A stretch of 64,000 bases of DNA from Polytrichum commune (Eukaryota; Streptophyta; Polytrichopsida; Polytrichales; Polytrichaceae). The stretch covers positions 37,763,081-37,827,080 of the forward strand of contig OX485809.1 of NCBI GenBank assembly GCA_950295325.1, in the 5' to 3' direction. The translations under genes were made by a program, and so were the position numbers. How positions within the stretch are numbered: the first letter of the stretch is position 1; every line of letters starts with the position of its first letter. The notes under the pieces are model-generated. The model ran no database searches. It saw nothing but the letters and a program-made list of their open reading frames with translations, and was not told the DNA's origin. This document shows, piece after piece, positions 3,467 through 63,186 of the stretch.

Positions 3467-3983
3467 TTTAGGGTACATGTTCGGCCACTATCTTCAAGTA
3501 GCTTGTTGCCGATTCATCTCAAATGACCATGAGTAACTTATACCCCAATCTACACTTACTACAGTAGTGTGGGTGACCAGCAAACGGTTTCTATTAACAT
3601 TGGTTACATCAAGTAGTCATCACTAGCCAAATTGGAGTTAAAAGTGGCCCTTATTAATAAGAGCCGTTCATTGCTAGCCAACTCGAATAAGTGTGGGCAT
3701 GCTACTAGACCGTGTAATTTAAGAGCTTCGAAGTTGATTCCAGTGTTGAATCGACTACAAAAATTTGATAAATGTAAAAATGGGTGCATACTATTTGAGG
3801 GTTTTATGTTAGATGAATGAGAAGTACGCTCGCATCCGATTGGTCTCTCTCTCCATGCATGGCCTCAACTATTGTAGCTATCTATTTGGCCACTATCTTA
3901 GAGTAGCTTGCCTGCAGGCACTCTTGTAAGCTGAGGTGGTAGAAAGCGGGCCCGATTTGGTACCGGAGGGCGTACCCTTCTCA
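3467..3983. other. Unassigned AT-rich stretch
   Basis: Between MITE A copy 1 and the Pogo-like element. Only short open frames on both strands. Nothing recognised. Confidence 0.3.
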
Positions 3984-3985
3984 TA

Positions 3986-4610
3986 CAGTCTACCCTCTAT
4001 AAATGTTAACCCTCGGGAGTGGATCAAAGTTAACATTTATAGAGGTGTTAACAGTTAACAATTATAAAATTACTTTTTTGAGAAATATATAAATCTTAAC
4101 ATTTATAAACATAAGCAATTGTGAAGAGTCCTTGTGAGAGAATACCATTCATAAAATTGCAAACCCAATCAAAACTTTATTCAATATCAAGTTTACAAAT
4201 CACGGGTGAAGTACGAATCAATGGTTCTTTGGTGAGATTCATCTGCATGCACAACTTGCAAATATTTCTCAATCTGCACCAACAAACCCACATACTTGGA
4301 CACATCACATGAACGTGATTCCATGTACCTTCTAATAGTACCAAAACTAGATTGCAAGTCACTATAAGATGGAATGGGTTTAGGTGAGAGAGAGAGGAAT
4401 GTAACTAGATGTGTAGTTTTTATCATCCATATTATGGTTGTATTTCATTCGTTAACATTTATAGAGTCAAATTTACAAAGAAGGGAGTACCATTTTGTTA
4501 ACAGTTAACACGTTTAACATTTATAGTGTGCAATATGTGGGGAGTAGAAGAAAGTTAACATTTAGAGAGGGTTAACACTTATAAGTGTAACATTTATAGA
4601 GGGTGGACTG
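3986..4610. mobile_element. Pogo-like (Tc1/mariner) deletion derivative, copy 1
   Basis: A 625-bp element flanked by TA on each side (3,984-3,985 and 4,611-4,612). The ends are CAGTCTACCCTCTATAAATG and its mirror (CATTTATAGAGGGTGGACTG, one mismatch). CAGT...CCTCTATAAAT termini with TA duplication are typical of plant Pogo-like (Emigrant/Lemi-type) elements. GTTAACATTTATA and GTTAACAGTTAACA motifs recur near both ends, as subterminal transposase sites would. A second copy of about 99% identity lies at 23,795-24,421. The interior keeps only the C-terminal end of a transposase frame on the minus strand. Confidence 0.85.
4193..4426 (-). pseudogene. C-terminal fragment of Pogo/Tigger-type transposase
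   Basis: A 77-codon open frame inside the Pogo-like element, antisense to the window. Residues about 25-77 contain SFGTIRRYMES, SKYVGLLVQIEKYL and a final TIDSYFTRDL. This layout resembles the C-terminal tail of Pogo/Tigger/jerky transposases, where a helical pairing segment precedes a short S/T-I-T-x-x-F end. The DNA-binding and DDE/D catalytic parts are absent, so the fragment cannot transpose by itself. The start codon is an accident of the internal deletion. The same frame survives in copy 2, so the deletion predates amplification. The homology call rests on pattern recognition only. Confidence 0.5.
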
Positions 4611-4612
4611 TA

Positions 4613-23322: not shown

Positions 23323-23792
23323 CCAAAAACAAGAAAGACCTTATTACTAGAGATTTCTGTTGTTTACTTAGAGTCATTCCAAGTTGTGAAACATTTTGTT
23401 GCGTTTTGTTACCCTATGATGGATGAGTTGATATAGACACTGCAAATCCTCGGTCCCATTGGGAACCCACTTTAATCATTAAAAGGCGACTTTGAGTTCG
23501 TGGTATTGATGTAACTTGTCCATTGTGGATTGAGGGGCTATACTAAAAAACAAATCCCCTATAAGTCGAGGGTGGAATCATCCCAATCGCACACCACCCA
23601 ACTAATCTACGGTCTCTAACACCACTCCTTGGTGCGAAATCATCATCTTCAAATATTCATTTTGAACCATGTTATTGAACAATCCTTAGCATTCTCACCT
23701 TCCTCGTGCATGAATGTGTGTATGTAGACACTACAATTCTTGGTGCCAATACATCTTCAATGGTTTACTAGATAGGTCGTGTGCCTGCCAAA
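23323..23792. other. Unassigned stretch
   Basis: No gene or repeat end recognised between MITE A copy 5 and the second Pogo-like element. Confidence 0.3.
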
Positions 23793-23794
23793 TA

Positions 23795-24421
23795 CAGTCT
23801 ACCCTCTATAAATGTTAACCCTCAGGAGTGGATCAAAGTTAACATTTATAGAGGTGTTAACAGTTAACAATTATAAAATTACTTTTTTGAGCAATATATA
23901 AATCTTAACATTTATAAATATAAGCAATTGTGAAGAGTCCTTGTGAGAGAATACCATTCATAAAATTGCAAACCCAATCAAAACTTTATTCAATATCAAG
24001 TTTACAAATCACGGGTGAAGTACGAATCAATGGTTCTTTGGTGAGATTCATCTGCATGCACAACTTGCAAATATTTCTCAATCTGCACCAACAAACCCAC
24101 ATACTTGGACACATCACATGAACGTGATTCCATGTACCTTCTAATGGTACCAAAACTAGATTGCAAGTCACTATAAGATGGAATGGGTTTAGGAGAGAGA
24201 GAGAGAGGAATGTAACTGGATGTGTAGTTTTTATCATCCATATTATGGTTGTATTTCATTCGTTAACATTTATAGAGTCAAATTTACAAAGAAGGGAGTA
24301 CCATTTTGTTAACAGTTAACACGTTTAACATTTATAGTGTGCAATATGTGGGGAGTAGAAGAAAGTTAACATTTAGAGAGGGTTAACACTTATAAGTGTA
24401 ACATTTATAGAGGGTGGACTG
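23795..24421. mobile_element. Pogo-like deletion derivative, copy 2
   Basis: A 627-bp near-identical copy of 3,986-4,610, again between TA dinucleotides (23,793-23,794 and 24,422-24,423). I count only a handful of differences, mostly single bases plus one in the GA run, so the two insertions are recent or were gene-converted. Confidence 0.9.
24002..24259 (-). pseudogene. C-terminal Pogo-type transposase fragment, copy 2
   Basis: An 85-codon frame matching the fragment in copy 1 through its last 60 residues, including SFGTIRRYMES and TIDSYFTRDL. The catalytic domain is missing. The N-terminal residues here read into non-transposase sequence, so the start has no meaning. Confidence 0.5.
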
Positions 24422-24423
24422 TA

Positions 24424-36902: not shown

Positions 36903-37985
36903 TAGTTCAATCATCCTAGTGCATATGTGGTTATTCTAGCAGCCTACACAAATGACGTAGCACTTCTAACCAACAAACTAACATTTCTCCAACTTCAATT
37001 CAACAAACTCGACCAATAATGTGCATGGGTAGGAATGGACCTAGACATACCAAAATGTGCAGTCACTGGTTGCCCCAACAAATCAAAACTAAACCCACGA
37101 ACCTTTAAAACACAACTACGGGACACAAACATTAACTTCAGAAACCAACCAATACTCATACTTAGCCAACACGAATCATATGTCTACCTTGGAATAAGCC
37201 TAGTCCCATCATTACAATGGAAAACACAAACACACATACCAACGACCAAATTAATAAAACAATGTAAATTGTTAATCACATGCCTAGCCACCATAAAACA
37301 AAAAATACATATGGCAGACATAGTAATACGAGCAAGTATTGCATATAGTTTTTACGCCGTCCCATACTCACTCCTAGCCATTAAAAAACTTGATAGGAAA
37401 ATAACCGCTCTACACAAAGCTATTTGCGGCCTACCAAAATGTACTTTGAATGCAGTTACACAATTTTCATACGACATGTTTGGCACAAAGACATTCTCAC
37501 TCAAAAATGCATACATCACATGGATAGGAGAACAACTCATTAACGCCCTCAACAATAATGATAGACTAGGAAGGATATACAACAGATTAGTAAAACACAT
37601 ACTCACCAAACATGGAGGTGCACAAAATCTTACACGCATATCACACCACGGTTGTATAAGATCACCAATCACAAGAACCTTATTCCTACTTAAAACAAGT
37701 TGTGGAGCCCATCTCAAAAGCACAATAGACAAATTTTCCCTCCTCCCCACACCACTGGAAACACAATGGATGCGGCAAGCAAGGAATATACCAACAATAA
37801 CCCCCGCACTATCCTTAAAATATCTACACAAATTAACATTACATAACATAACTGAAATCAAACACATAACACACCCCAACGGTACATACCTAATGACAAA
37901 TGATGAATTTAAACACTACTATAGCTCACCCACTAAAATTATAAAAAGAAACTGCATTAAACCACACCAGAAAACTCTTTTGTGA
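36903..37985 (+). pseudogene. LINE reverse transcriptase, C-terminal part
   Basis: The frame opens with NHPSAYVVILAAYTNDVALL. This is RT motif C, but the usual A/Y-x-D-D catalytic pair is altered to T-N-D, so one catalytic Asp is gone. After an in-frame stop at about 37,018 a 316-codon frame runs from 37,035 with CAWVGMDLDIPKC just around it (motif D region) and YVYLGISLVPSLQWKTQ (motif E and thumb start), typical of non-LTR RTs. The remainder is the helical thumb (AICGLPK etc.). RT motifs A and B are absent because of 5' truncation. The first Met has no special meaning. Confidence 0.7.
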
Positions 37986-38088
37986 AACCTCATGCCACAA
38001 CCAATGCCCAAATATATGCCTAACATACATCACACCAAACACCTTAAAAAACGAATATCACATACAAAACCATAGCATACACACAAGG

Positions 38089-39330
38089 TTGCAAGAACAC
38101 AATACACACCCTCTACCCCCACCATCTCTAGAATACCCAAAACCACCCCTACACATCTTAAAGGACCCCACACATTTCCCAATATACACCATACTTAATG
38201 ATCGCCTGAGTACATACAAAGATAAATACAAAATCACAAAAAAATTCACATCCTACCTATGCCAATGGTCATTCCCAAATGAGGAAACTTACAACAAATG
38301 GGTGTCCCAAAGAGATTTGTTTCCTTGGAACCACCAAAACATCATAAGCCATAATATCCTAATCTTAACACAATACTACACACGGAAACAACACCAACAC
38401 TTCACTACCATACTACAAACAAACTTCAATCAGGAACAAATGAGAGACACCCGATTTATACCCCCACCACGAATCATACCTCTATGCCTTCACACCAATG
38501 AATGCAACCCAGAAAACGATATTGCCTACACACAAAACACTATTCAAACTCAACACAGAGTATCCCACATATACGATAACACTGGCCATCACTTGATCAC
38601 CATTCCCAAACAAAGACTAAAATGACTATGGGAACAATACCAAACAACTTTAAAGAAACCCCAACATCTCGAGCCCCCCCACCCAACCATTTGAAACGGA
38701 AGTTGCATGGTTATATCAACGATATAAATATAGAACTTTCAAAAATGATCCCCTAAAACTTTTACAATACTCGCTTCCAGAGGCCATCCTTGAACACTTC
38801 ATAGACTCCTACCAGATCACACACTCTTACTTTTCATCACCAATAACATGCCCCACCACACTTAAACAATTATACTTTTCATTTCCCCGAGACGGAGTTT
38901 TTGGATCAATAGGCACATTGTTTCAATACAAATGGCAAGGACACCTCAACCTCCACGAAAGACCTTTTCCAGACTCACATGTTATTGCACACTTCAAAGC
39001 TGACACCATCACATACAAAGAACCAACAATTCCACCAAAACTACGAAGTGAACTTAGAACAGAAAGTCGCGCCATACACACTCTATGTGTCCATCACAAA
39101 GGCACACCCACTGGATCAAAAGGATATACCCAACAAATGTACAATATTGCTAACACCCTACAAATATCCGCAATGCTCACTCAACCCGCACCACCTACAC
39201 CGCAAGACACCCCGGTAAATCGTAGTATAAAATGGTCTAAACTCACAAACCCCCCTCATCCACCAACCACCCAAACCCCCAATGTTCCACTAAACACTAA
39301 CACTAATAGATGTCTACCCCTCAAATACAT
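38089..39330 (+). pseudogene. LINE linker region between RT and RNase H
   Basis: Two frames, 38,089-38,625 (178 codons) and 38,918-39,463, separated by a frameshift/stop region around 38,626-38,917, belong to the same polyprotein because the coding bias (A/C-rich, Pro/Thr/His-rich) and the order are continuous. I recognise no domain here. It is longer than the RT-RNase H spacer of most LINE clades. Confidence 0.5.
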
Positions 39331-39340
39331 ACCACAATTC

Positions 39341-39800
39341 TGCTACTACACAGATGGATCATTCAAACCACCTAAAGAAACATCCCAAGGACACTGGAAA
39401 CGCGGAAACACTAGAAACCACTGGACATTGATAGGTATGGTATCTACAATTCTAAAAATCTAAAAATTGCAATAAGACTACCAGGGCTACAAAACATACT
39501 ACGAGCTGAAATGATGGCCATACACCACATTCTCCAACTCCTGACCACCACATATCGTGATGAACCAACACATATCTTCACGGATTGCCTTAATGTCCTA
39601 CATTTACTAAACAATCAAATCAAACACCCCACACTACATAATAGCCACCCAGACAAAAATATTCTTGAATCCATGACCACAATGCTACAATCCCGCACAC
39701 AAACCACCACACTTCATAAAGTCAAAGCCCATGCTAGCATAAATGGCAATGAACAAGCAAACACATTAGCCAAAGTAGGATGCGAACTAGATCATAGAGA
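39341..39800 (+). pseudogene. LINE RNase H domain
   Basis: The first active-site motif is YYTDGSF (about 39,341-39,361). After a frameshift the second is RAEMMAI (39,502-39,522) and the third is FTDCLNVLHLL (from about 39,575). The last is KAHASINGNEQANTLAK (about 39,722-39,772), where the family Asp of the H-x-x-x-x-x-N-x-x-A-D pattern has become Asn. The D-E-D-(D) order is that of type I RNase H, which removes the RNA strand during reverse transcription. Broken by one frameshift and the lost Asp. Confidence 0.75.
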
Positions 39801-40147
39801 CGCCAAATGCCACATGACATGCACACTCTACACCATACTACCTCCAAAAAGATGGGTGGCACTCAATGCAAGAAACACCAGACAAAGGCCCCATACGACA
39901 CCTTGGAAAACACGTCCTCAAATATGACAACAACCATAATTTAGAAGTGATAGCTAACCAAACACACCAACTACACAAGTGGCTCGAAAATAAAGATATT
40001 GACAAGACCTTATCAAACAATTTTTGAAAAAATCCAAGTATTACGAATAAACAAAAAAATATGCCTGATCATATTTCAAACGGGACAATACATGGGCCAC
40101 GCCCGGAAGCAACTCTTCTTTGGTAGAGAAGCTTACCCATAAAAGCG

Positions 40148-40729
40148 TGTCCCATCTGCAACTCATCAGACGCAGATTCATGGTTACATGTACTACTTAA
40201 ATGGAAACAACAACACATTCATGCACTTATAATAAAACAACATAACAAAGTTGTATGGGAAGTACATAGACTAATTATGTCAAATAAAATATCTAGACAC
40301 TATACACTTATGAACGCGGGAACATTCAATGAACGACCCCAAGAAAATACCATGCCAACATGGCTATTGCCATGCACATGTGGTACCCAGAGATGCCATT
40401 GCAATGCGAGGTTTAAACCGGACATATTGTGCATCATAGGACATCCATATAACCACCCCCCACCAGAAGCCCCTACAACAGGAATCACCATACAATTCAT
40501 AGAATTTACATATTGTAATGACATATTTGCTGTAGAAACCCTTGATAGGAAAATCACAAAATACCAACCGCTCATCAATAACATCATAACAAGAGGATGG
40601 AATGTAGCCCCACTCATGGTACTAGTCGCAGGCGCAAGAGCCACTACACACATCCCATCAATGAAAAACCTGGAAACAAAATTCAAACTCCCTCTCATAA
40701 AAATAAAAAAACACATTCCAACAAATTAA
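40148..40729 (+). pseudogene. LINE CCHC motif and restriction-like endonuclease
   Basis: CPICNSSDADSWLHVLLKW (40,148-40,203) matches the C-x-x-C-x(n)-H-x(4)-C motif that precedes the endonuclease in R2-group LINEs, with the final Cys changed to Trp. A 150-codon frame from 40,277 then contains CTCGTQRCHC, FKPDILCI (PD, near 40,412), IEFTYCND (E-x-T, near 40,498) and RKITKYQPLINNI. PD ... (D/E)-x-T ... K-x-x-K-Y-x-x-L is the pattern of the R2/Dualen-type restriction-like (PD-(D/E)xK) endonuclease that nicks the target site. The distance between PD and E-x-T is plausible. This assignment is from motif order, not a search. Confidence 0.6.
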
Positions 40730-42770: not shown

Positions 42771-43344
42771 CTTCTTGGACGCACGTGGTTGCTAGATGCA
42801 CACACCTAAGAAGATTGGAGGAAGGGTACATTTACAATAGGAAAAAGATTGGAAAACATAATTCTACCTTATAACCTACCCAATACCATGGTGAAACCCA
42901 ATTCAATGAGATTGAATTCGCTACTGATGGTGTTTATGAAATAGAAAATGAAACTACTATAAGCGAGTCTATACATTATGTGAATGATGTATCATTTAAG
43001 TATACCACTTGGTGATGGAGATTCGGATGATGTTATTTTGGCATGGCAAAATACCGTACCAATAAACACGATTTCTATCCATCTACCATTGATGTATGAA
43101 CCACAAAATTTGAGAACAATCAATATTGTACAACCATAAGCAAAACCTAAAGCATTAGATGAGGATGAGTTAGCTAAAAAATGAGAGTCTTCCATGTTTG
43201 AGTTTGATTGACCTATTAAGAATTATGTGGTCAAAGACGTGTGTATGCATATGGATTTGGGTGATGATGATACACCTCATATTATCAAGATATATGAGAA
43301 AATATCCAAAGTTGAGTATTGGAGACTATTAATGATGATGATCG

Positions 43345-43893
43345 GTTATGACTAGTAATGGATGGGTTTTCCGGATACAATCAAATTCAATATATTCACC
43401 ACATCGTCTTCTAATATCTTTCATTACATCATGGGGAACATTCACACATGGACGAATGTTATTCGGTCTATGTAATTATTTTGGTATTGCTTCTAGGCTA
43501 GGAACCAACACCTTTTGGAAATACCTTCATCTTACTATAAAGTTATTTTTGGATGATTTTGTAGTATACAGTGCAATGGAGAAACATGCCCAACACTTAC
43601 AAGAGTGTTTTGATGAATGTATGGCGGAATGGATCTCTAGCAACACTACAAAATCTGTGTTTCTAGTTCCATTTGGCAAATTAGTTGGTCATATAGTTTT
43701 TAAGCAAGGAGTTGCTATCAATCATGCTAAGATTGCAACCATTGTGTTTTTACCTATCCCAACTACAGTTACTAAAGTAAAAAGATTTTTGGAACATACT
43801 GGATATTATCAAAGATTTATTTTTAGGTATTTTGTCATTGCCTTACCATTGACAAAATTATCAAAAATCATAGATACCCCACGCATATTTTAA
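43345..43893 (+). pseudogene. Gypsy reverse transcriptase fragment
   Basis: The frame contains SWGTFTHGRMLFGLCN (motif B region), a damaged stretch, then KLFLDDFVVYS (motif C; FLDD in place of the usual Y/F-x-D-D), EKHAQHLQECFDECM, KSVFLVPFGKLVGHIVFKQG (motif D/E) and KIATIVFLPIPTTVTKVKRF then LEHTGYYQRFI (RT-RNase H connection). This is the classic Ty3/gypsy order. The start of the RT is frameshifted (a GFSGYNQIQ-like segment is in another phase), so the frame is a remnant about 180 residues long. Confidence 0.75.
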
Positions 43894-56686: not shown

Positions 56687-57048
56687 TTTATGTGAGGCCA
56701 AACCGCCCACCCTTAAGCGTCCTAGTCCGGGTGAGGGCATGGATATCACATTCATGTTCACATAACTCCCTCTTACCAACTTCGTAAAAATCCACTTCTT
56801 TTCCCATCAACTCTTGCACACCAATTTATTCCATAATAAGAGTACAAGCATTGAAAAATGCTCTTCTTTATTTATCCCCTCCTCCCTACACTAATTCACA
56901 CTCCAACCCTCAACTCATTACCAAAATCTCATCCCCCTAGTCCATCCTCTAATTCATGTGAAACTAAATCCCCTAATACCCTTAGCCATTACCCGGCTTA
57001 TACCCGGTCTTCTAGCTATTCCGATAACCGTGTCTTCGACCAAGCTTC

Positions 57049-57441
57049 GGCCACAGCCAGTAGCCCTTCAAATTCTGTAGCAGTTCGGCCAAGCTCGGCC
57101 ACACCAGTAACCCCTCAAATTCTGTAGCAGTTCGGCCAGCTTCGGCCACACTAGTAGCTCTTCAAATTCTGTAGTAGTTCGGCCAAACTCGGCCACAACC
57201 AGCAACTCTTCAAATTATGTAGCAGTTGGCCAGCTTCGGCCACACCATTAGCTCTTCAAATTTTGTAGTAGTTCGGCCAGCTTCGGCCACACCAATAGCT
57301 CTTCAAATTCTATAGCAGTTCGGCCAAGCTCGGCCACAGCCAACAGCTCTTCAAATTCTGTAGCAGTTGGCCAGCTTCGGCCACACCAGTAGCCCTTCAA
57401 ATTCTGTAGCAGTTCGGCCAAGCTCGGCCACAACTAGCAGC
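57049..57441. repeat. 47-bp minisatellite, eight units
   Basis: GGCCACA starts recur at 57,049, 57,097, 57,144, 57,191, 57,238, 57,285, 57,332, 57,379 and 57,426 (spacing 48 once, then 47). Units contain TTCAAATTCTGTAGCAGTTC. Two unit types, AAGCTCGG and CAGCTTCGG, occur mixed. The period is not a multiple of three, so the peptide frame through it is not coding. It lies inside the putative LTR. Confidence 0.95.
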
Positions 57442-59431: not shown

Positions 59432-59458
59432 CGTTAAAGGACCGTATGTCCAATTCGG
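59432..59458 (+). repeat. Left terminal inverted repeat
   Basis: Begins CGTTAAAGGACCGTATGTC and ends AATTCGG. 26 of 27 bases match the reverse complement of 62,467-62,493. Confidence 0.9.
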
Positions 59459-60045
59459 CCAATTTTTGAGCCCTTTTTTTGGGTAGAATCGGCAGCTGAG
59501 GTGGACTGCCGATTCTGCCAGTCATAATCGGCCAGGCCTGCCGATTCGGTGATCGTATTTTGTAAACCGTATTCCGTATATCGTATATAAATGCCATTTG
59601 AATTTGACGAGCTTCCCGCGCATGAGACAGTACTACGTACCCGATGGAAATGTACTGACTGTAGGCTTTTCCTTTGATTGTTGATATTAATTGTGGTTTC
59701 CTTATGACTAGTGTTCACTCAATTCTTGTTGTGTGTTACACTGATGGTGAAGAAATGTCCAGTATACTCAGAACTCACGTTTACACAACATCAAATATAA
59801 GTGAGTGATTAATAAACAGAGTGTACCGTCTTGCAAATCGGTTCTTGGCAGCAAAATTGGTTCATTCAACGTTCACTTAGTATCCATCTCGTGTCATCAA
59901 TCATCAATCAAAACCAAAACCTCTAACAATGAAAGCATCCACCATCCAATCATGCGATCACAATTACTGAACTCAAAGAGGCTTCTCAATCCACAATTAC
60001 TGAACTCAAGGCTGCATGTAAAAACCTCGGCTGCTTCGAATCATT

Positions 60046-60205
60046 CACAGTTTGGAATCGTTCTTACTAAATCTATCACAGTTTTGAATCGTTCTCACTA
60101 AATCTATCAATGTTTTTTCACACAATCGATCTCACTTAGTTAATCACTGCTTCGAATCGATCTCACTAAATCTATCGATCACTGCTTCGAATCGTTATTA
60201 CTGGT
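60046..60205. repeat. Iterated ~32-bp motif 3' of the recombinase gene
   Basis: Four to five imperfect tandem units of the form TCACAGTTTTGAATCG.TCTCACTAAATCTA run up to and slightly into the 3' end of the coding frame. A direct repeat CACAATTACTGAACTCAA (near 59,959 and 59,992) precedes them. They could be protein-binding sites or simply tandem drift in a 3' untranslated region. Confidence 0.7.
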
Positions 60206-62340
60206 TCTTCAAAGAGTTAAAAAACGCTGATGCTGACGCTGCATCTGGAATACTCAGCTGAATGGTACAATTACTGATATTCCCATGGAATACGTTGCTA
60301 ACATTACCGATGTTGTTAACACGGGAAATTTCAACTGCCTGCTTCTTGGAAGTAATCAGAGCTTCAATCTCTTGCTGAACATCGGAATTAGACCACCAAT
60401 CGTCCTCCTCAATCATCCGCTTGCAGTTCACATCAGGTGCAGGAACAAGTTGAGCAATCATTGCACGATCCTGGGCGTTAACAATTTCGGATCCATCTCT
60501 AACATCACAGATCGAAGAAGAAACCGATGGTGAAGGCATAATCGACTGGGGTTGCTTATTCTGAGATTCGTAAAATCTTCGCCGCTCATAATTGAGAGCT
60601 TGATGCCAAAAGATATCACCACCGGTGCCAGACACCGCACTGGCTATATTCTGGAGAGCACGCATTTCTATTCCATCTTCGTCTGTATTGTAACGCATAT
60701 AACCTTCTCGAGAATTGTGACCAGTAAGCTTCATTCCTATTTCGGCTGGCACTCCCATAGCATTCAAGCGGCTAACAGTGGTAACTCGAGCAGTCTTATT
60801 GGAGAAGCATCCAACATCACAACCCGGAATGTCTTGCACCATCTGCTTGAGCCACTTTGAAATGCTTTTTATTCCAACTCGAGATTTGGAGTACCACTTC
60901 AAACACAGCCAAGGAGTAAAATCAGCGCATGAAGGAAAACGACCGATTCATATACCAAATCACCTACCGGTTAGGAAGAGAAAAAATCCTAGCGAACTGG
61001 ATCTACCAAACCACCGAACTGGATCTTAAAACAAAAAGCCAGAAACATGGAATTGAACTACTTACAACCCCAGGATCACGTAGGATGCCATCTATTGGTC
61101 GCAGGAACAACGGATGAGGCCCTGGTTCATTAGGAAGCCACTTAGGGAGGTGCGCAAAGTACGTATCAAAAGTAAGAACCACATCTGGCAGGTAGCACGT
61201 AACTGGACGCCGAAGTTTCTCAGGCTGACAATGCTTTAGATCAATCTTATGGTTCTTAGATGATCTCTCGTCAAACCGAACGAATATGCCAAAGCGATCT
61301 TCAGAAAACTCAAAGTCGATATCACACAGATTATACAATTTTTGTTGAGCTCTCACACAAAAATTCACACTAACATAGAAGGCTAGTCGGAGTTGACAAC
61401 CACGCCTGTCCGATTTGGACATAAAAGCCTGGGCCAAGATCGCAACATCTTGCTCAGGAGTGAGCGCTGCAGTAACCCTCCGCTTACGTCCTACACCGGC
61501 CATTCCAGAATGTCGTGCTGATGTAGTGCATGCAACACATGCTTTCATGAACCGAGGATCCTCCAAAATGTAAAACTCCTCCTCAGGTTTGGAAGTCTCC
61601 ACACTTCTCTGGCAACATCTGGCTCGGATGATTCGGCCAATCGCCCGCAGTAGTCCGACAAGCGTTTCACCAGGGTAGAGCTTCCCATCTCTACGTTGGA
61701 CTTGAAGAAAAAATGTTGACAATTGTTCGTTCAGTAAGGCGCATGAATTCTCGAACATGTCTTCAATAGTATCTTGGCTGGTAATGCCAGAAATGATCCG
61801 CCAGTCATTGAATCGATTACGAGCCCAATTGTCGAGATACGCAGACTTCCTGTGACCGCCCTTGGCAACTATATTAACCTCCTCCTTTTCAAGCTGCCTA
61901 AAACCTTTTCGAAGATACTCCAAAGCGGCATCAGAAGTTGGCTCAGGAACATCGACCAGATTCGCATCAGCTGCAGGCTCAGAAATCTCAAAAACGTCTG
62001 CCTCGCCTCCTAAGATATCAGCGACTTCAAGATAATCTTCCCCGTCAATGAGCCAAGCAGGATCCTCGCCAGGATCAATCTCTCTAACACCGTCAAGATC
62101 ACCAGAAATGCGCCAGAAACCACACGGATCATGTGAAACAGGCTTAGAAACAATAGTTTCTGTTGTTGGAAGCTCCTCCGTTGGTTTGCGAAGTAAACCG
62201 TTGTTCACACTCTCTGACTCCAAAATTAGAGATGTACTTGGCGATGCACCGCTGTCCCCCGCATCCAACGCCGAAATCACAGGTGTAATTGCCAAGGAAT
62301 TGGACACATCCTTCAACGGAACACGATCAATTGACGTCAT
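60198..62340 (-). CDS. Tyrosine recombinase of the Crypton/DUF3504 type (two exons)
   Basis: Exon 1 is 62,340-61,066 and exon 2 is 60,896-60,198. The intron (61,065-60,897, 169 bp) starts GTAAGT and ends AG, phase 0, joining DPGV to WYSKSRVG as in the family. Product about 657 residues (677 if the upstream ATG at 62,400 is used; I prefer MTSIDRV because the upstream residues look like leader). Residues 1-140 are acidic and unstructured. About 165-270 is a core-binding domain (YLDNWARNRFNDW, VQRRDGKLYPGETL). From 280 on is the catalytic domain: FCVRAQQ (Arg330), SSKNHK (Lys near 362), RRPV...LFLRPIDG, NKTAR (Lys459/Arg462, Lys at the usual His), LTGHNS (His485) and MRY (Tyr494, 9 residues after His). 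The C-terminal tail ends in ISNCTIQLSIP. All catalytic positions are filled and no stop interrupts either exon. Confidence 0.8.
60897..61065 (-). other. Intron of the tyrosine recombinase gene
   Basis: GTAAGT donor directly after codon 425 and TTTGAAG acceptor, 169 bp, phase 0. It contains in-frame stops in the continuing exon-1 frame. Removing it restores the collinear family order between LRPIDG and the K-x-x-R box. Confidence 0.75.
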
Positions 62341-62466
62341 TGCTGTCAATCGGCACAAAACAAGCAAAAAGAAATTGAAATGGACGTAAAACTGCTTCAC
62401 GGTGACGTCGATGAAAGTTCGGAGGAGGTATATGGTTTCCGTAGAGATACGGTCTCGACCGTATGT

Positions 62467-62493
62467 CCGAATTTGACATACGGTCCTTTAACG
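62467..62493 (-). repeat. Right terminal inverted repeat
   Basis: Reverse complement begins CGTTAAAGGACCGTATGTC. It overlaps a smaller hairpin, CCGTATGTC...GACATACGG (62,459-62,483). Confidence 0.9.
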
Positions 62494-62495
62494 CC

Positions 62496-62611
62496 AGAGA
62501 AGCTGCAGGGTAGTGCCGATTCGGCAGTATGGTTCGGCCAGCTGGCTCGCCCTACGGGCTCGCCAGTGACCTCACCATACTGCCGAATCGGCACTACCCT
62601 GCAGCTTCTCT
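62496..62611. repeat. Perfect 38-bp inverted repeat beside the element end
   Basis: The left arm 62,496-62,533 (starts AGAGAAGCTGCAGGGTAGTG) is exactly complementary to 62,574-62,611, with a 40-nt loop. Each arm contains TGCCGATTCGGCA, itself near-palindromic. The related motif CTGCCGATTC occurs inside the left end of the recombinase element (about 59,508 and 59,539). Confidence 0.95.
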
Positions 62612-63186
62612 AGTACGTTATGAGCTAGCCTCGCTCCCTCCCTCGCTCGCTGGCAGGCTCGCTGGCAGGCTCGCTGGCAGGCTCGCTCGCGCGCGGGCGG
62701 GCGGACGGGCGGAGGCGGCTGGCTGCTACCGCTCCTGCGGCGTATGTGCGTAGGAAGGTAGGTAGGAAGGAAGGTAGGTATATCGCCACCACGGCCACTA
62801 CGCCGGCTGCCGCTGCCAAGTGGCGGTTCCTGGTCTTCGTCAGACTTGCCAATCCCGGGGCTTCAAAAGGACAAGGCGACCAGCCCCAGCTCCACAGAAT
62901 CGCCCCCCTTCTGCGCAGACAGGACTCTGCCACGTGGCACCTTCTGTCAGGGGGCCATTTCCCCAAAACGCCACAAAGAGTCCCCATCCCCTCCCCCTTC
63001 CCCTCCTCCAACATTGTCAAGATAGATCAGTGATCGGGGAGATTTTTGGGCATAAGTTAATCGGTTGAGATCCTAGTGTTTGCATGTCCAACTGGTTACA
63101 TGTTGACATCTTTCGGTTTTCCTGTATTGATTTGGGGTATATTTCATATATTCCTCTAAAGTGATCGGTAATTCTCTTGAAGTCTT
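62612..63186. other. GC-rich stretch with CTCGCTGGCAGG triplication
   Basis: The 12-bp unit CTCGCTGGCAGG repeats three times (about 62,645-62,680), followed by CG-rich sequence and then a pyrimidine-rich block near 62,990. It looks like a GC-rich promoter or gene flank. Open frames on both strands are low complexity. No gene called. Confidence 0.35.

Follow-up and report, generated by a model that had tools for sequence, protein, structure and literature searches.

Among the described transposons that use a tyrosine recombinase, the Cryptons are the closest point of comparison for the locus presented here. As characterised in the relevant sections of PMC3212892, they lack terminal inverted repeats and have 4- or 6-bp direct repeats, and the hosts listed in Table 1 of that paper are fungi, animals, oomycetes and a diatom, with no land plant in the table. 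One sentence of the same source describes the Tec elements of Euplotes (Tec1/Tec2), which combine a tyrosine recombinase with a DDE transposase. In the parts of PMC12506042 that deal with Starship captains, eukaryotic tyrosine recombinase transposons are taken as using site-directed recombination, and Starships themselves are large, cargo-bearing elements of fungi that have direct repeats. The subject of this report is an element of 3.2 kb from Polytrichum commune, located at 59432..62616 on the minus strand of a 64,000-nucleotide stretch (C7:37763081-37827080, hereafter the window), which is probably a Crypton-like land-plant DNA transposon mobilised by its own tyrosine recombinase. Land plants reportedly have a gene family that descends from recombinase retroposons of the DIRS type (PMC3537659). 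Among the entries listed by open-access literature searches, and in the consulted passages of PMC11630846, we found no recombinase-only transposon or Crypton described from a land plant.

The limits of the element were obtained from its copies in the source genome, whose 64 contigs amount to 407.8 Mb (C1-C7 total ~406 Mb). The left 769 bp, used as a genome query, identified nine places, four of them holding long elements and five holding the first 115-119 bp only. An exact 15-base end pattern gave 11 matches, all inside these nine copies (0 for the reversed control), and a 250-bp short copy, used in a search that scores the best candidates only (here 13 of 13) and leaves out very frequent words, returned 22 stretches that also lie inside the nine. 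All nine copies align to the window from 59432 or 59433 through 62616, after which the flanks differ, and the ends are taken as fixed because nine of nine insertions with different flanks diverge there. On the window strand GTTAAAGG is present from 59433 and ...CTAGTAC up to 62616 in every copy, the right end reading ...CTTCTCTAGTAC when the nine are aligned to the window, while position 59432 is C in 8/9 (A in L015) and is possibly part of the target side. The four long copies are separated by 17-50 substitutions over 2.9-3.2 kb; the reading frame is intact in the window copy and in L011, that of L009 is interrupted by a stop and a frameshift, and L010 has no start.

An earlier note on this DNA had placed both ends of a transposon at inverted repeats, 59432-59458 and 62467-62493. 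These repeats do exist (27 bp, one mismatch, extending to 30 nt at 93%, with ~6e-8 such pairs expected by chance in 5 kb at uniform base frequencies), but all nine copies reach 62616 and not 62493, which makes the right arm at 62464-62493 internal. The note had itself named copies ending elsewhere as the observation that would speak against its proposal, and this is what the nine copies do. The reading in which symmetric terminal inverted repeats of 27 bp, at 59432 and 62493, bound a recombinase transposon has in its favour repeats far beyond chance, yet these copies refute it and we give it practically no credence. What survives of the earlier interpretation is a mobile element with a Crypton/DUF3504-type tyrosine recombinase, without the true terminal inverted repeats.

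Read in gene direction, the element opens with GTACTAG and continues with a 116-bp foldback; then come CGTTAAAGGACC, which repeats the far end in inverted form, the gene and finally GGTCCTTTAAC(G). The features are as follows, with the strand given where one applies.

59432..62616, minus strand (the gene direction): whole element; flanks diverge at both limits in 9/9 genomic copies.
62610..62616, minus strand: gene-5' terminus GTACTAG, also present in sister family S (GTACTAG) and sister family C (GTATTAG).
62496..62611: terminal foldback of 116 bp, 45-nt arms 93% complementary, from a repeat scan and DNA fold.
62482..62493: inverted copy GGTCCTTTAACG in subterminal position, directly inside the foldback; in the five short copies (L012 with one substitution), absent from L010.
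62464..62493: right arm of the 30-nt inverted repeat, internal.
62457..62485: lox/FRT-like palindrome GACCGTATGTC-7 nt-GACATACGGTC with 11-bp arms, read from the sequence and present in long copies.
61066..62340, minus strand: exon 1, from the ATG; open frame with GTAAGT donor, homologues aligned.
60897..61065, minus strand: intron of 169 nt, GTAAGT...AG; ends and length identical in 4/4 long copies, junction colinear with Riccia proteins.
60198..60896, minus strand: exon 2, with K459xxR462, H485, Y494 and the stop; coding to 60201, TAA at 60200-60198.
59482..59546: two small hairpins with AATCGGC...GCCGATT arms; fold of 59432-59560 with z -4.5; within the first 115-120 bp and retained by the short copies.
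59432..59461: left arm of the 30-nt inverted repeat, the real terminus.
59432..59443: gene-3' terminus CGTTAAAGGACC, inverse of the subterminal copy; GTTAAAGG in 9/9 copies, the preceding C in 8/9.

At the gene-5' end, 62470-62617 (148 nt) folds as DNA at -61.8 kcal/mol with a z of -17, and none of 200 shuffles equals it. The foldback region is kept in 8/9 copies, some bases shorter in L009, and L010, from which 62236-62559 is deleted, retains the outer arm only. The 12-bp inverted repeat is asymmetric, with one unit terminal and the other inside the terminal hairpin, the inner unit ending 123 bp from the terminus. A small GGAC-CGTAT-GTCC hairpin at 59439-59451 overlaps the gene-3' repeat. The window contains the motif CCGTAT 11 times against 13 expected, and six of these 11 lie within the end regions of the element. 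Whether the palindrome at 62457-62485 is a palindromic target into which a Crypton had inserted was also considered; the idea was dropped as the copies place the real end elsewhere.

The five short copies (255-265 bp) reveal what the element needs in cis. Their right-part matches start at 62472 (L013) or at 62482 (the other four), and those four (L012, L014, L015 and L016) carry an identical internal junction, each at its own site, L013 having another. One internal junction at four sites means that a single deleted derivative has spread to all of them, and the ends alone are thus enough in cis: ~118 + 135 bp of end sequence lets a derivative spread. The lox-like palindrome is incomplete in all five short copies and is therefore not needed in cis.

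The one intact, single-intron recombinase gene of the earlier note is confirmed; it lies on the minus strand and encodes 657 amino acids. The splice junction fits two Riccia sorocarpa proteins, which are colinear across it (window ...DPGV/WYSKSRVG..., P0002 ...AVWFCKSPVG..., P0003 ...LVWYLKSPVG...), and the named homologues comprise these two and P0006, P0007 and P0009 of Diphasiastrum complanatum. The residue layout reads R330, K362, K365, K459-x-x-R462, H485 and Y494, all of them among the invariant positions of a five-row profile, A5, that combines the window protein, families S, B and C and Riccia (rows B and C being composites); of the R-H-R-Y set, R330, R462, H485 and Y494 are invariant, and K459 stands where the H of HxxR is usual. 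Against the PDB the A5 profile matches integrase 3nkh (E 1.3e-4). PF00589 (Phage_integrase) is matched by 3/5 A5 members, at best with 3.1e-5 and not by the window protein, and DUF3504 by 2/5. All 25 structure matches with E<=0.001 to the predicted structure of P0003, built on a 15-row alignment, are Cre (including its variant Tre) or Tn1549 integrase. At rank 27 stands a chain from an entry containing QRICH1, a DUF3504 protein according to the abstract of PMC3212892. On the A5 profile, the PF00589 matches and the P0003 model, the family is a tyrosine recombinase. In viral contigs, a protein scan gave six pattern stretches and no relative, and an exact 17-base end had 0 matches.

A protein search of the source genome returned 52 matching stretches, including divergent recombinase families, two of which, S and C, share ~30-36% amino acid identity with the window protein. 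Family S has four loci (C7:38.12 Mb, C7:30.50, C7:30.53 and C6:44.09), whose three different flanks diverge <=4 bases from GTACTAG, each with a preceding T, and a long hairpin follows GTACTAG upstream of the gene. The two copies of family C (C3:58.7 and C4:47.8), with two flanks, diverge exactly at GTATTAG, followed again by a hairpin upstream of the gene that is uninterrupted in the C4 copy and less perfect in the C3 copy. By eye, the hairpin sequences are visibly different between families; what recurs is the structure and the first seven bases, with one C/T difference. Just inside the hairpins of families S and C stand ACGTAGCC... and ACGTAACCGG.... Because two divergent recombinase families share GTAYTAG and a hairpin upstream of the gene, the hairpin end can be tied to the recombinase, and this recurrence counts as strong evidence that such a terminus is part of the recombinase system.

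Some further observations concern family S itself. The loci at C7:30.50 and C7:30.53 Mb (L061/L062, L060/L063) are 99.98% identical over 4.28 kb including flanks and lie 32 kb apart, a recent segmental duplication. The family also forks into two 3' types at S1 position 4167 (L065/L059/L080 versus L067 and L064), beyond which the S1/S2 copies and the S4/C6:38.456 Mb copies carry different sequence.

With its ends and protein defined, the element can be placed among the systems introduced above. It resembles Cryptons, as far as the consulted text of PMC3212892 describes them, in having a tyrosine recombinase as its sole protein, a size of a few kb, a low copy number, weak DUF3504 similarity and a presumed circle route; the recombinase is indeed its only transposition protein. 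It differs in the long hairpin at one end, the asymmetric inverted repeat and the lack of a fixed direct repeat: whereas Cryptons are without terminal inverted repeats, a 12-bp repeat plus foldback is present in 8/9 copies, and the 4-6 bp direct repeats of Crypton type are absent from its two ends, a 6-bp flank repeat occurring in 1/9. In protein searches with the recombinase, no protein named as a Crypton was among the matches. We thus regard the element as Crypton-like and not as a Crypton proper, and the best reading of the homologues is that the lineage belongs to land plants, with relatives in Riccia and Diphasiastrum. With Tec elements, as that one sentence portrays them, it shares a tyrosine recombinase within a eukaryotic transposon, but no DDE transposase is seen in it, the two recombinase exons being the only frames >117 amino acids within 59432-62616 (shorter frames were not scanned for domains). 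Nor does it have the reverse transcriptase and RNase H of DIRS, Ngaro or VIPER, given this same absence of any further frame of that size. Cre/loxP and the Tn1549 integrase are likened to it by the predicted fold of a homologue and, putatively, by the logic of a circle and core site; the structure alignments show 12-15% identity, and here the host is eukaryotic and one end a hairpin. A Starship captain would be comparable as a recombinase, but at 3.2 kb and with a hairpin end the element is unlike a Starship.

The site layout in gene direction is 5' flank|GTACTAG ... CCTTTAAC|3' flank. The 3' flanks begin with G in 8/9 and with GT in 5/9, repeating the first bases of the element. The absence of a target duplication that the earlier note had recorded holds at the true ends insofar as no consistent duplication exists in the nine copies, with the exception of L010, where alone the 6-bp GTTGAT stands on both sides. 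In the mechanism that we propose, the recombinase would bind both ends, which would be joined into a circle with the junction TTTAAC.GTACTAG; this junction would recombine with loosely similar chromosomal sites, giving no target duplication beyond 1-2 bp, and the hairpin would act as the recognition structure at one end, as either double-stranded inverted sites or a folded strand. The insertion sites do appear to resemble the predicted circle junction weakly: the joined sites match TTTAAC.GTACTA at 46/108 positions versus a mean of 29.3 (sd 4.4) for positions drawn at random from the flanks (P 2.5e-4).

Several points weigh against an element moved by its own recombinase in this way, beginning with that target test, which was made after the sites had been looked at. 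Its match rests largely on the +1 G (8/9), possibly element sequence; with the 5' flank taken by itself P is 0.004, but TTTAAC comes only 6th among 60 permutations and enrichment there extends to the control GTTAAA (P 0.014), and the 3' flank past the G has no signal (14/45, P 0.35). Neither a circle nor an empty site was seen, and one copy, L010, lacks the inner hairpin arm, although loss after insertion is possible. On the protein side, K replaces the usual H of HxxR, the DUF3504 match of the window protein is weak and sub-threshold (Pfam E 0.022, core 0.0093; 16.5 bits against a cut-off of 29.7), and the window protein alone gives no relevant PDB match. The P0003 model is that of a homologue and of low confidence, with a mean predicted local distance difference test score (pLDDT) of 59 and a predicted template modelling score (pTM) of 0.37. 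The ratio of nonsynonymous to synonymous polymorphism (pN/pS), based on few changes, is 0.24-0.37 for the sister pair S1/S2 and 0.40-1.18 for all other pairs tested, including those of the element's own family. The asymmetric repeat is seen in one family only, the gene-3' ends of S and C not having been reached. Finally, GTACTAG with a strong hairpin was found at 0/10 other recombinase loci, of which two are family C and the remaining eight, several being fragments or with little upstream sequence, were not scanned for GTATTAG.

A sub-case of this reading, possible and in our view rather doubtful, is that the hairpin works as a folded single strand, with one strand recombined and replication completing the insertion. 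Integron attC sites act as folded single strands. A long and nearly perfect hairpin at one end only, recurring in three families despite visibly different sequences, would fit such a role, as would the z of -17 of the element's own hairpin, but long hairpins could also be dimer binding sites in double-stranded DNA, and L010 persists with the outer arm only.

It is unlikely, if more plausible than the remaining alternatives, that the element is a non-autonomous Helitron2/Helentron with a captured recombinase gene, its ends being recognised by RepHel in trans. The target of Helentrons lies between T and T. Helitron2 elements, according to the sections of PMC3627910 that define them, insert after TTTT; their asymmetric repeats measure 8-15 bp, one of them lying at the terminus and the other directly inside the terminal hairpin, and the repeat takes part in a 5' hairpin as well. 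The layout found here agrees with those published ends, down to the GGAC-CGTAT-GTCC hairpin over the gene-3' repeat, and the likeness extends to the mostly absent target duplication (PMC3627910 and PMC4344730, in the passages on this point). However, the GTAYTAG hairpin end occurs in three divergent recombinase families, always upstream of the gene; no further locus with these ends was found by the 250-bp query among its best candidates, common words skipped; and in the nine copies neither T|T nor A|T is consistent in any flank pair, and TTTT ends no left flank. The hairpin is also far longer, a 116-bp foldback with the inner repeat ending 123 bp from the terminus against ~20-30 bp in the published descriptions, and in place of a RepHel-sized frame the element has only the recombinase (the genome was not searched directly for RepHel). 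Asymmetric repeats and a hairpin thus do not in themselves prove a Helitron. A DDE transposon of the TTAA type (piggyBac, Kolobok) with the recombinase gene as cargo is very improbable. TTAA does lie close to both arms of the 27-bp repeat, but it is internal: outside it stand G in 9/9 and C in 8/9 copies, the true right end is GTAC, and TTAA as a hidden target duplication was rejected on these grounds, no copy of the nine having a TTAA duplication directly at both ends. No duplication is fixed, and the one of 8-10 bp that the earlier note's alternative of a trans-acting DDE transposase implied is seen in 0/9 copies; the cargo reading, for its part, has no frame >117 amino acids other than the recombinase exons to draw on. 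Mobilisation in trans is in general less likely because two other recombinase families carry the same type of hairpin end.

Other features of the window lie outside the element. Near-identical direct repeats at 3983-4612 and 23792-24423 (300 nt at 99%, 227 nt at 100%), 19.8 kb apart, are perhaps the long terminal repeat pair of a large, recently inserted retrotransposon. A series of long plus-strand frames spans 37020-40729, of which 38654-39463 matches PCIF1_WW above the cut-off (E 5.1e-8), and its neighbouring frames give the impression of being retroelement-like. A weak, sub-cut-off reverse transcriptase match at 43342-43893 (E 0.004) is perhaps a degraded retrotransposon fragment, and 57035-57432 is a tandem array of 8.4 copies of a 47-bp unit, TTCGGCCA-rich.

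Returning to the element as a transposon of its own recombinase, we suggest tentatively, and with more doubt than conviction, that it may represent an undescribed land-plant tyrosine-recombinase lineage in which the site at one end would be a long folded strand, GTAYTAG plus hairpin, whose structure is kept while its sequence changes. Eukaryotes would then have a counterpart of integron attC recombination, with ends that resemble those of Helitron2 by convergence. The limits of recombinase-only transposons are difficult to establish; in this case exact ends and intact genes are available together with minimal derivatives that spread on their ends alone. With three families sharing one type of end in one genome, the site and the mechanism of a eukaryotic Cre-like transposase become directly testable.

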